A stretch of DNA of 64,000 nt, from the NCBI RefSeq assembly GCF_001971585.1, contig NZ_CP019323.1:1044053-1108052 (forward strand), given 5' to 3'. Shown here piece by piece: positions 28,157 to 60,638 of the stretch. The position numbers were made by a program, and so were the translations under genes. The notes under the pieces are model-generated. The model was not told where the DNA came from. It saw nothing but the letters and a program-made list of their open reading frames with translations, and did no database searches. The stretch comes from Companilactobacillus allii (lineage in GTDB: Bacteria > Bacillota > Bacilli > Lactobacillales > Lactobacillaceae). How positions within the stretch are numbered: position 1 is the first letter of the stretch; the number at the start of each line of letters is the position of its first letter.

Positions 28157-28267
28157 AAACGCGATCCACAACACAATTTCTTCCGCTTAACGCTAAAAAT
28201 GATCTTCACTTTGTGAAGGTCATTTTTTGTGTTAATGCTCGGAAATTTTCGTGTTGTGGATCGCTCT
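28157..28267 (-). repeat. Palindromic element, copy A
   Basis: 111-bp nested inverted repeat in the 300-base gap between EpsG and the second chain-length gene. Constant blocks on the minus strand are AGAGCG, AATTTCCGAGCATTAAC, TTAAGCGGAAGAAATTGTG and CGCGTTT. The variable outer arm is ATCCACAA/TTGTGGAT (8 bp). The inner arm AAAATGACCTTCAC pairs with GTGAAGATCATTTT around AAA. The rest of the gap shows nothing clear. Confidence 0.88.
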
Positions 28268-28399
28268 AATTTTCTGAAAATAGACGAATCGTAATTTCAA
28301 CCCTCTTTGCTATACCGCTGTTCACTACATGAATTATCATGTGATGTGACCACAAGATATTGTGTGAAATATAGATTCTTTAGCATCGGGAGTGAGTTT

Positions 28400-29122
28400 T
28401 TGAAATCAGATGAAACGCCTAATATGACAAGCTTAATTGGAGTATTTGATGTTATTTATAGGCATATGAAATTGATCATAATTACTACTTTAATAGTATT
28501 GTTCGCCACTGGTTTCACTACGTTTTTTGTTATCAGTCCTAAGTATGAATCGACGACTGAACTGCTCGTTAACCGAAAATTGTCGACTGATTTACAATCG
28601 GCACAATTCCAACAGGTTCAAGCTGATGTACAGATGATAAGTACTTACAAGGACATTATTACTAGTCCGGCAGTCTTGAACACTGTTATGAAAAAGGTGC
28701 GTGATTATCCAGAAAGTCCAACTTCAAGTGAAAATTTGGCCAAGTCGATCAGTATCAGCAATCAACAAAATTCACAGGTTTTCTCAGTATCTGCCAAATC
28801 GGCTAATAAGAATACTGCGGCACTTATTGCTAACGAAACAGCGAGAGTCTTTAAGAGCAAGGTAGGCAAGATCATGAATATTGATAATGTATCGATCGTT
28901 TCGACTGCGACACCGAGCTCTAAACCTTATAGTCCTAAGAAAGTCTTGAGTTTACTAGCGGGATTAGTAGTTGGCTTGGTATTGGGTATTTCCTTAGCAT
29001 TTATTCGAGAAGTCAGTGACAACACGGTTACTAACGAAGAATTCTTGAAGAATATGGGCTGGGTCAATCTGGGTCAAGTTTCAGAAATGGATAATAAAAA
29101 GAACAGTCATCAAAAGGAGTAG
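28400..29122 (+). CDS. Wzz/YveK-type chain-length regulator, second locus
   Basis: Paralogue of the gene at 1701: the same two-helix layout, SPKYESTTELLVNRK and QADVQMISTYKDIITSP. I start at TTG 28400, which has GGGAG 7 bases upstream and aligns with the start of the first copy; longer in-frame extensions lack a ribosome site. This gives 240 residues. The kinase follows after 2 bases. Divergence between the copies is substantial, so this is an old duplication or a separate acquisition. Confidence 0.85.
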   Translation: MKSDETPNMTSLIGVFDVIYRHMKLIIITTLIVLFATGFTTFFVISPKYESTTELLVNRKLSTDLQSAQFQQVQADVQMISTYKDIITSPAVLNTVMKKVRDYPESPTSSENLAKSISISNQQNSQVFSVSAKSANKNTAALIANETARVFKSKVGKIMNIDNVSIVSTATPSSKPYSPKKVLSLLAGLVVGLVLGISLAFIREVSDNTVTNEEFLKNMGWVNLGQVSEMDNKKNSHQKE

Positions 29123-29124
29123 TT

Positions 29125-29841
29125 ATGTGGAATAAAAAGAAAAAGTTAGATAATAATAGCCAAAAAAACGGCATTAACTTGATTACTTATTCTAGTCCAC
29201 AAAGTCCTATTTCAGAGCAATTCAAAACGATTAGAACAAATATTCAATTCACTGCGGTCGATAAAAAGATAAAGTCTTTAGTTTTCACTTCGGCTGATCC
29301 ATCAGAAGGTAAGTCAACTGTCAGCAATAACTTTGCGGTAAGTTGTGCCACTCAAAATACTAAGACAATCCTGATCGATGCGGATCTTCGTCGTCCAACA
29401 ATCCATCGGACCTTTGGTTTGAGTAATCAAGTTGGATTGTCCAACTACTTATCTAGACATGCGGCCTTAGATGAAATCATTCAACCGTCAATAGTTGAGA
29501 ACTTATCAATAATAACTAGTGGACCGATTCCACCTAACCCTTCTGAGTTACTGGGTGGTCAAAGAATCAAGGAATTGTTAAAAGAATTGGATGAAAGGTT
29601 CGATCTAGTGATATTAGATTCACCACCAGTCAACACTGTCACCGACACGCAAGTATTGGCGAGTGTGGTTGATGGGGTAGTGATGGTAGTGCCACAAGGA
29701 ATCGCTACCAAGAATGGTGTGATTCATGCCAAAGAATCCCTTGAACTAGTACATGCACATGTTTGTGGAGCGATTATGAATCGAGTAACTAGATCTAAGT
29801 CTGGTTATTATGGCACCGAATATTACGGGATATACAAATAG
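29125..29841 (+). CDS. BY-kinase (tyrosine-protein kinase), second locus
   Basis: 238 residues. Walker A SADPSEGKST, Walker A' TILIDADLRRP, Walker B LVILDSPP. The tyrosine tail is short (SGYYGTEYYGIYK, five tyrosines) compared with the long glycine-tyrosine run of the first kinase. AAGGAG is the ribosome site. No phosphatase gene follows; the next gene is the priming transferase. Confidence 0.92.
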   Translation: MWNKKKKLDNNSQKNGINLITYSSPQSPISEQFKTIRTNIQFTAVDKKIKSLVFTSADPSEGKSTVSNNFAVSCATQNTKTILIDADLRRPTIHRTFGLSNQVGLSNYLSRHAALDEIIQPSIVENLSIITSGPIPPNPSELLGGQRIKELLKELDERFDLVILDSPPVNTVTDTQVLASVVDGVVMVVPQGIATKNGVIHAKESLELVHAHVCGAIMNRVTRSKSGYYGTEYYGIYK

Positions 29842-29851
29842 AGGTATCGAT

Positions 29852-29876
29852 CTTTGAATTAATGGGAAATTCAAAG
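29852..29876 (+). promoter_or_regulatory. hairpin directly before the second priming transferase
   Basis: CTTTGAATT (29852-29860) and AATTCAAAG (29868-29876) form a perfect 9-bp stem that abuts the GAGG ribosome site of the next gene. It has no T-run, so it is not a terminator; it could tune translation or mark mRNA cleavage. It occupies the place where locus 1 has its phosphatase gene. Confidence 0.45.
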
Positions 29877-29887
29877 AGGTCCTTTGT

Positions 29888-30541
29888 ATGGAGTATTGGA
29901 AACACTCAATTGATGCACTGCATCAGCAGCATCGATATTTTTACAGATTTACTAAGCGGATTTTTGACTTGGTCGCAAGCATTTGTGGCTTGATTATTCT
30001 GTCACCGGTGTTCTTGGTGATAGCGATATTGATAAAGTTCGACGATCCACATGGTCCGATATTTTATGAACAGACCAGGGTCGGTAAGTTTCAAAGGTCA
30101 TTTGAAATGTTCAAGTTCAGATCAATGAGAGTTAATGCTGATAAGCAACTGGGGAAAATTGCTGACAAGAATGAAGTTTCTGGACCAATGTTCAAAATGA
30201 AGCATGATCCACGTGTCACAAGAATCGGTCATTTTATCAGAAGATACAGTCTAGATGAATTGCCACAGTTGTTAAATGTGGTGCTCGGTGAGATGAGTCT
30301 AGTTGGTCCACGTCCGCCACTTCCAAGTGAGGTGGAGCATTATGATGCCTTTTCTATGCAGCGACTAGATGTCTTGCCCGGTTGTACAGGACTTTGGCAG
30401 ATAGGTGGTCGTAGTAATGTCAGTTTTGACGACATGGTCAAGTTGGATCTGGAGTATATCAATCGCTGCAGTTTTTCATTTGACTTATATATATTAATAA
30501 AAACATTTGTTTTATTTTTCAAGCCCAACGGAGCTTATTAG
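29888..30541 (+). CDS. Undecaprenyl-phosphate sugar-1-phosphate transferase, second locus
   Basis: 217-residue priming transferase, clearly paralogous to the one at 4221: [47 protein letters not shown] and one N-terminal membrane helix. A second primer implies that the second locus can make its own polymer rather than only modifying the first. Confidence 0.92.
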
Positions 30542-58930: not shown

Positions 58931-58952
58931 AAAAAACATTTGTATCCCCAAA

Positions 58953-58968
58953 AAGAAACCGCTAACAT
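58953..58968 (+). promoter_or_regulatory. cre-like catabolite-repression site before the GH1 gene
   Basis: AAGAAACCGCTAACAT matches the CcpA cre consensus WTGNNARCGNWWWCAW at all but two positions. It lies 36 bases ahead of a beta-glucoside gene, where catabolite control is expected. Confidence 0.5.
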
Positions 58969-59003
58969 ATATCATATAAGTAAAACCGAGGGGGTTACTA
59001 AAC

Positions 59004-60455
59004 ATGACAACAACATTTCCAAAGAACTTCTTATGGGGTGGCGCTACTGCTGCCAATCAATATGAAGGAGCATGGAACGAAGGCGGCAAAGGACCTAGTG
59101 ATTCTGATATGTTACTAAGTGGAACGTATGATAAGCCACGTGTATTCACAAAAGAATTGAAAGATGACGGATATTATCCATCACACTTAGGTAGTGATTT
59201 TTATCATCATTATAAAGAAGACATCAAGTTACTAGCAGGCATGGGTTATAAGACTTACCGTATGTCGATTGCTTGGTCACGTGTATTTCCTAACGGAGAT
59301 GATGCTACTCCTAACCAAGAAGGACTAGACTTTTATCGCAGTGTCTTTGAAGAATGTCATAAGTATGGGATAGAGCCACTAGTTACTATTTCTCATTACG
59401 AAATGCCATATCATTTGACTGATAAGTATAACGGCTGGGGCAATCGTCTGGCGATTGATTTCTACGTTAAATATGCCAAGACTTTGTTTACAGAATATAA
59501 GGACTTGGTTCATTACTGGTTAACATTTAACGAGATCAATATCGGTATGATGTTTGGTGGCTACATGTCACTTGGGATGAAAGTGAAAGATGGCAGTGCG
59601 CCATTCAATCCTAAACAAACTGATGAAGATATTCAAAATAACTTACAAGGATTACATCACCAATTCGTTGCAAGTGCTTTGGCAGTGAAGGTTGGCCATG
59701 AGATTAATCCTGATAACAAGATTGGTTGTATGATTGCTGGTAACGTAAATTACCCATTAACCTCTAATCCTGACGATATTCTTAAAGCGCAACAAACTAA
59801 TGAAATGATGAATTATTACTGTGGTGATGTACAAGTTCGTGGTGCATATCCTCACTTTGCACAACGTTTCTGGGATGAACATAATGTCAAACTTAACATC
59901 ACAGCTGAAGATGAAGCAGTATTAAAAGAAGGTGTAGTTGATTATTATACTTTCAGTTATTATTCATCAAATGCTGTAACAACTGATGAATCCAAAGGCG
60001 AAGCTGGCGGTAACTTTACGATGGGTGTCAAGAATCCATACCTTAAGTACAGTGAATGGGGCTGGGCAATGGATCCTAAGGGATTACGTTGGTACTTGAA
60101 TGACGTTTATGGTCGTTACCAGATTCCAATCATGGTAGTTGAGAATGGACTCGGGGCTCGTGATGTGGTTGAATCCGATGGATCAATTAACGATGATTAT
60201 CGTATAGAGTACTTGCAAGGTCATATTGAACAAATGAAAGAAGCTATTAAGGATGGCGTCGATCTTGTCGGTTATACTCCTTGGGGTTGTATTGATTTGG
60301 TTTCTGCTGGTACGGGTCAAATGGAAAAGCGTTATGGTTTTGTTTATGTAAATCGTGATGATAATCAAGTTGGTGATTTTAGTAGAACACCTAAGAAGAG
60401 TTATTACTGGTATAAGAAGGTTATTGCGTCTAATGGTGCTGATTTGGATAACTGA
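59004..60455 (+). CDS. GH1 6-phospho-beta-glucosidase
   Basis: 483 residues. Hydrolyses PTS-imported phospho-beta-glucosides in the cytoplasm. [20 protein letters not shown] at the N-terminus, acid/base in LTFNEIN, nucleophile in MVVENGLG, and the phosphate-binding end [18 protein letters not shown], which marks the 6-phospho group. GAGGGGG precedes the ATG. No PTS gene is adjacent, so the transporter is elsewhere. A cre-like site lies upstream. Confidence 0.92.
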
Positions 60456-60478
60456 TTTATTCTTAATATTTATAGTGG

Positions 60479-60596
60479 AAACGCGATTCTCAGCACAATT
60501 TCTTCCGCTTAACAAAAATAGTTTCGGTATTCACTTTCGTGAATGCCGGAACTATTTGCGTTAATGCTCGGAAATTCCCGTGCTGAGAATCGCTCT
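60479..60596 (-). repeat. Palindromic element, copy G
   Basis: 118 bp. Outer arm ATTCTCAG/CTGAGAAT; inner arm AAATAGTTCCGG/CCGAAACTATTT-like with apex ATTCAC-GAAA-GTGAAT. It starts 24 bases after the GH1 stop and ends in T's on the plus strand. Confidence 0.9.
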
Positions 60597-60601
60597 TTTT
60601 T

Positions 60602-60638
60602 GTTAATGCTCAAAAATTCCCGTGCTTGGTAGCACTCT
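60602..60638 (-). repeat. Half copy of a palindromic element
   Basis: GTTAATGCTCAAAAATTCCC then GTGCTTGGTAGCACTCT repeats one half of the element with a different outer arm, 6 bases beyond copy G. The remaining about 210 bases to sufC hold only AT-rich sequence with two TATAAT-like boxes (60805-60810, 60816-60821). Confidence 0.7.

Follow-up and report, generated by a model that had tools for sequence, protein, structure and literature searches.

Integron attC sites are hairpins located behind stop codons that combine conserved unpaired bases with variable stems. The EFAR elements of Enterococcus faecalis are modular miniature insertion sequences of ∼170 bp with two hairpins, which insert into stem–loops with loss of most of the target. 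Repetitive extragenic palindromic (REP) elements are 20–40 bp in length, and GTAG REPs lie mostly downstream of genes, where they often supply the TAG stop codon, according to PMC3733652, which also names EFAR elements. The insertion sequence IS1272 is described in PMC5678879 as inserting by replacing a stem–loop target. Here we examine a family of hairpins found in a 64,000-nucleotide (nt) stretch of the Companilactobacillus allii genome (NZ_CP019323.1, positions 1,044,053 to 1,108,052; hereafter the window). These hairpins are probably short, non-autonomous mobile palindromic repeats of Lactobacillaceae, similar to REPs or miniature inverted-repeat transposable elements (MITEs), that are sense-oriented at the 3′ ends of genes and carry exchangeable nested hairpin modules around a bulged motif.

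Read 5′ to 3′, the hairpin consists of AGAGCG, a variable outer arm, CACGG, a small internal loop, the block UUUCC-GA-GC-A-UUAA, a variable inner arm and an apex, from which the strand runs back to a CGCGTTT end. One copy spans ∼115 nt, from AGAGYG to CRCGTTT, and is followed by a 3′ tail. The bulged block is formed by the GA and A bulges in CC-GA-GC-A-UUA / UAA-GC-GG, and it is visible in most of the listed copies from other genera. An earlier sequence-only reading of the window had listed six full copies, one decayed copy and two halves. All of them are present, with copies B, C and E on the plus strand and copies A, D and F on the minus strand:

28157..28267, minus strand: copy A, full hairpin, whose 5′ end (AGAGCG) is on the high-coordinate side; it lies antisense to the gene on either side
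49877..49879, plus strand: TAA stop codon of the gene preceding copy B
49883..50001, plus strand: copy B, full hairpin, starting 3 nt past the stop codon of gene 47942-49879
50061..50094, plus strand: additional 3′ half of copy B, with the same outer arm and 13/13 pairing with the 5′ arm of B
52655..52772, plus strand: copy C, full hairpin, without a long open reading frame (ORF) ending there
53359..53432, minus strand: weakly folding, shortened copy that has decayed or diverged
56770..56887, minus strand: copy D, full hairpin, preceded only by a short ORF (86 codons, stop 11 nt upstream)
58601..58603, plus strand: TAG stop codon common to gene 57605-58603 and copy E
58602..58718, plus strand: copy E, full hairpin, whose leading AG completes the TAG stop of gene 57605-58603
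60479..60596, minus strand: copy F, full hairpin
60602..60638, minus strand: 5′ half with arms unlike those of copy F, which it immediately precedes on this strand

The six full copies have fold energies of −52.4 to −70.2 kcal/mol (z of −9.9 to −13.7), and for each copy none of 200 shuffles matched it. The decayed copy, folded as 53355-53436, has a z of −3.4, and one of 200 shuffles was as good. A terminator-like hairpin behind gene 50178-52178, at 52199-52225 of the window, resembles the apex of copy C (ACCG.TATTTAC..GTAAATACCGG).

Like REPs, the element is a short palindrome with many extragenic copies (70 pattern matches in the host genome, 66 of them curated), mostly behind genes. However, at ∼115 nt it is well above the 20–40 bp of REPs, its conserved bulged block is flanked by two stems that vary, and it has no fixed GTAG or CGTC; the bases before the 5′ AGAG vary by copy. 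The modular plan with two hairpins is also found in the description of EFAR elements, from which the present element is set apart by ends that are constant and lie outside the variable arms. MITEs have fixed terminal inverted repeats in common with a parental transposon and are flanked by a target-site duplication; in the present element only short ends are constant, with variable stems between them. The location behind stop codons, the conserved unpaired bases and the variable stems are shared with attC sites. At copies B and E, however, the hairpin and not the gene is the insertion, because relatives have the gene without the hairpin.

No Rfam 15 family reaches its gathering score for the element, either in the window or at eight element loci of other genomes. 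The only match above that score in the window is a DUF3800-I RNA located elsewhere (20257-20374, plus strand, 70.6 bits), and below the threshold there are only microRNA-type matches. The literature searched, beyond which lay most subscription papers, holds no description of the family, and in the available part of PMC2267715 none of the stem–loop families of one Lactobacillus is recognisably the present element. The initial statement that no named family has this plan therefore stands for Rfam and for this literature, but the plan does resemble stop-adjacent palindromic repeats such as REPs and, as described above, EFAR elements. The family is apparently undescribed and is grouped here with the small palindromic mobile repeats, without being assigned to REP, EFAR or IS1272. 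What is new is the stop-adjacent positioning, which recurs in other genomes, together with the nested module plan.

Position was assessed by comparing the start of each element with the stop codon of ORFs of at least 100 codons on the same strand, as found by a simple ORF caller. The upstream neighbour is on the same strand for 63 of the 66 curated host copies. Starts fall between −15 and +5 nt of the stop codon in 46 of the 66 and between −7 and +3 in 45, and in 20 the AG of the element completes the stop. At the opposite (3′) end, measured against antisense genes, the corresponding numbers are 4, 1 and 0 of 66, and none of 1320 shifted control positions (150–600 nt) lies within −7 to +3. The same preference is seen elsewhere. 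Among copies from genomes G012, G024 and a few others (our codes; the host is G000), 60 of 112 lie at −15 to +5 of a stop versus 2 at the other end, and among copies from other genera the numbers are 23 of 48 versus 0. The set of 112 was derived from 148 matches by leaving out reads from the reverse strand, reads that repeated a locus and a few weak rows. For the other genera, 50 of 58 matches were handled and 48 entered the position test, since the other set included L069 and L072.

Many of the remaining copies sit inside tandem arrays or lack a long ORF in front of them. Annotated records also contain stop-adjacent elements: on a Latilactobacillus curvatus plasmid the element starts 9 nt behind a DUF2188 coding sequence, and an ABC-protein coding sequence on a Pediococcus damnosus plasmid has a diverged copy immediately at its stop. 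At G000:C1 positions 841054, 843344, 914533, 949729 and 870581, upstream ORFs extend into the element and terminate within it, gaining short tails such as ..SVTERE and ..NNTRVISEH.

The host genome carries ∼70 copies, as judged from a 16-mer taken from the first constant block, for which 70 sites match with at most two mismatches, versus 1 for a reversed control. Curation started from 182 loose matches to the 5′ motif, 79 of which have the 3′ motif; 74 were kept, and 66 remained after eight were dropped: a nested copy, a diverged copy, chance matches, and reads that repeated a copy already included or were shifted relative to it. With a covariance model, the family is detected in 32 of 36 genomes of the genus, at 0 to 94 matches per genome when at most 99 candidates were scored in each. 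The host has 94 of these matches, some possibly being antisense reads of one palindrome. Across Lactobacillaceae, at least 107 of 301 genomes and at least 19 of 40 genera have matches, and these counts are lower bounds because 11 candidates were scored per genome. Of 295 genomes sampled from the order, 14 match: 13 are Lactobacillaceae, and one (G378) matches by a weak central hairpin only. The only exact match that carries an organism name is from Companilactobacillus musae. Related copies with 71–76% identity to a query from another genus (L187) are located on plasmids of L. curvatus (one record) and P. damnosus (three records). Plasmid searches with host copies gave no match in one case and four chance-level matches (E = 4) in the other, and a phage search gave no match.

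Several aspects of the distribution were noted in passing. The region from 1.475 to 2.340 Mb of G000:C1 has 3 of the 77 listed host matches versus 26.6 expected in this third of the chromosome, with bounds that were set after seeing the data; a nested copy at 1803820 and a 5′ half at 2166981 lie there too, and 17 further matches exist outside the listed 77. Head-to-tail arrays of whole hairpins with a period of ∼120 nt, some copies being identical, occur in G012 (L140 852-1335, L149 922-1281 and L157). A shortened or diverged form, in which a second small hairpin (GAGTTTGTGACATAACTC or similar) replaces the inner arm or the tail, is found in the region of G000:C1 785779 and at 357455 and 2166981. 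The stretch TAGTTATGTCACAGC, which is related to this second hairpin, is present in the tails of copies from other genomes.

Comparison with relatives reveals empty sites at copies B and E, where the gene is present without the element. Gene 57605-58603 codes for ribose-phosphate pyrophosphokinase, and in G012, G013, G014 and G024 its reading frame closes with ...I-K-stop, behind which stands a terminator-like hairpin. The host lacks both the final lysine codon and this hairpin, and copy E begins inside the TAG. Behind gene 47942-49879, a terminator-like hairpin is located within a few bases in G013, G014 and G024, other sequence is found in G012, and the host has copy B. A divergent element lies behind the orthologue of copy E's gene in G030. 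Behind five other genes, the host and either G012 or G024 carry elements that differ in subfamily. Particular genes acting as hot spots were also considered, and the five shared genes were judged, informally, to be close to chance. Tandem and nested copies are seen as well. The early suspicion that the element is mobile is thus supported by the ∼70 copies, by their tandem and nested arrangement and by the different elements behind the same genes.

Relatives have a terminator at the positions of copies B and E, which is reminiscent of IS1272. In contrast to the non-coding element with its variable stems, IS1272 has its own transposase gene and fixed 16-bp ends. Moreover, terminator-like hairpins remain within 200 nt downstream of 33 of the 112 copies in other genomes and 8 of the 66 in the host, which differs from IS1272 and contradicts terminator replacement at every site. 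With regard to insertion into a stem–loop as described for EFAR elements, the missing terminators at B and E and the hairpins kept elsewhere point both ways. The element does not appear to be an intrinsic terminator itself, since all 66 listed host copies end in CGTTT or similar followed by a non-T tail. A terminator scan gave nothing on the sense strand at B, C or E; at D it listed one partial, antisense-type site in the inner hairpin.

The stems show strong covariation. In an alignment of 31 of the 66 curated host copies (A2), 33 of 49 pairs have changes on both sides and 94.3% of cells are pairing. The covariation score is 0.443 versus 0.145 in shuffles, with 0 of 500 reaching the observed value. 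When the structure is slid along the same alignment, only 37–48% of cells pair and the score is at most 0.091. For eight other genera (42 loci, 58 rows, fitted to the covariance model and including a few reverse-strand reads), 41 of 49 pairs have changed on both sides and the score is 0.635 versus 0.196. These data, from a covariance model and a larger set of copies, agree with the sequence-only reading that the stems covary and that a folded form is conserved in which the unpaired block stays constant while the stems vary; the bulged block is kept across genera too. The bulged core may be the part that is recognised. The outer arms are not as unrelated to each other as had been thought. Most outer-stem columns have a clear majority pair, and 9 of 41 distinct 8-mers are common to at least two of the 66 copies.

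The outer stem is perfect over 13 pairs in 51 of the 66 host copies and has at least 12 pairs in 61; the copies carry 41 distinct 8-nt arms. How such stems change was assessed with same-core pairs, which are pairs of copies whose cores (the constant blocks plus the inner hairpin; 81 nt in the commonest form) are of equal length and differ by at most three bases. Among 57 such host pairs, the outer stems have 208 both-sided versus 21 one-sided changes, and in 11 pairs with an identical core the numbers are 41 versus 1. Of 58 host pairs with the same arm, 29 have a common 3′ tail (permuted mean 6.4; 0 of 500). The core is independent both of the arm (3 of 57 pairs, permuted mean 1.5, 100 of 500) and of the tail (8 of 57, permuted mean 6.3, 146 of 500). 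Because arm and tail are linked and the core is independent of both, the outer stem and tail constitute one module in the host and the core another.

Additional 3′ halves lie downstream of 17 of the 66 host copies, and their arms pair at 11–13 of 13 positions with the resident 5′ arm. In one of them, the resident outer arm stands next to an inner arm that other copies have in identical form, and this half is likely the trace of a core swap. The idea that arms are rewritten on copying holds to the extent that whole paired modules are exchanged in the host; it does not extend fully to G012 and G024, where core and arm are still linked. That arm diversity in the host arose by stepwise compensatory mutation is disfavoured by the ratio of both-sided to one-sided changes and by the module linkage, with the reservation that independence fails in G012 and G024.

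The favoured explanation, which we regard as probable, is the one given at the outset. The fold, its covariation, the position and strand of the copies, the different elements behind the same genes and the independent assortment of core and shell in the host are the observations behind it. In this account, the element is placed in sense orientation at the 3′ end of a gene, beside the stop codon and ahead of the terminator or in its place, and its own AG often completes a TAG. It is built from two nested paired modules: a shell comprising the ends, outer stem and tail, and a core comprising the bulged block and the variable inner hairpin. Insertion might be carried out by a structure-reading enzyme, now perhaps lost, and the modules could be exchanged by recombination or conversion through the constant blocks. 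If transcribed, a hairpin behind the stop might influence mRNA decay or the end of translation.

Several results weigh against a mobile repeat of this kind. In the host, 20 of the 66 copies do not start within −15 to +5 of the stop of a long ORF. Within the window, B and E clearly fit the rule, D does so only behind a short ORF, and A, C and F break it. Whether the terminator is kept or replaced differs by copy. Exact ends and a target duplication are not demonstrable because the flanks of relatives are too diverged. No transposase or autonomous partner was found in searches that did not include DDE-type transposases. The same-core pairs are not independent, as eight copies of one core group supply many of them; even so, the outer stem changes as a unit in the host. 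Finally, core and arm are linked above chance in G012 (8 of 31 same-core pairs, permuted mean 0.67, 0 of 500) and in G024 (5 of 14, permuted mean 0.66, 0 of 500), partly through tandem duplicates, and module exchange is therefore less complete there.

A more specific version of the mobile repeat, which we advance only tentatively, is a hairpin that homes to stop codons. A structure-reading enzyme that is neither a Y1 transposase nor a reverse transcriptase would insert it strand-specifically at gene 3′ ends by means of the bulged motif and the constant ends. The core would be a cassette swapped between copies, perhaps when a cleaved hairpin is repaired with another copy as the template, and the stems would diversify while pairing is kept at the DNA level.

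Less likely than the mobile repeat is a functional cis-acting RNA in the 3′ untranslated region (UTR) that is kept by the host for mRNA stabilisation, RNase processing or damping of translation near the stop, with spread being secondary. The sense orientation, the closeness to the stop and the strong covariation all fit such an RNA, and a reduction of translation is reported for E. coli REPs that lie fewer than 16 nt from a stop (PMC12306157). However, elements behind orthologous genes are not orthologous, most orthologues in the examples seen have no element, and the copy number varies from 0 to 94 within one genus. Mismatch contexts point both ways as to the level of selection. G-T exceeds A-C by 49:11 in copies of other genomes, as tolerance of G-U at the RNA level would give, whereas the host counts are even (22:26).

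Template switching within the hairpin during DNA replication, in which one arm is copied from the other and the arms drift together, is improbable. It would produce the large excess of both-sided over one-sided changes, and it has been proposed as a process that creates and maintains RNA hairpins (PMC8794818). In contrast to this expectation, up to 7 of 13 outer pairs differ between copies whose cores are identical, and one-sided intermediates are almost absent. A given outer arm is also found again, with its tail, on different cores, and the bulges and internal loop have not been evened out. The arm jumps between identical cores and the recurrence of arm and tail with different cores therefore point to the exchange of ready-made modules.

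It is very improbable that the element is a classical REP mobilised by a Y1 (RAYT/IS200-type) transposase or a retro-element dependent on reverse transcriptase, despite the resemblance to stop-supplying GTAG REPs and the single Y1_Tnp gene in the host, since among the 36 genomes of the genus, 18 of which have a Y1_Tnp match and 12 an RVT_1 match, there is no Y1_Tnp match in the copy-rich G012, G024, G032 and G034 (44–93 element matches each) and no RVT_1 match in G000, G013, G024, G032 and G034 (44 to 94). A mobiliser of this kind may have existed and been lost since.

The family adds a widespread unannotated element to the genomes of lactobacilli, one that may alter the 3′ UTRs of many genes, including that for phosphoribosyl pyrophosphate (PRPP) synthetase. 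It also provides an accessible case for studying how a mobile repeat comes to target gene 3′ ends strand-specifically in genomes with neither a Y1 transposase nor a reverse transcriptase. Strong covariation is usually taken as proof of a functional RNA, but here much of the both-sided change between copies within one genome looks like the exchange of whole paired modules. The family is therefore a natural test case for distinguishing selection on RNA from concerted change at the DNA level.

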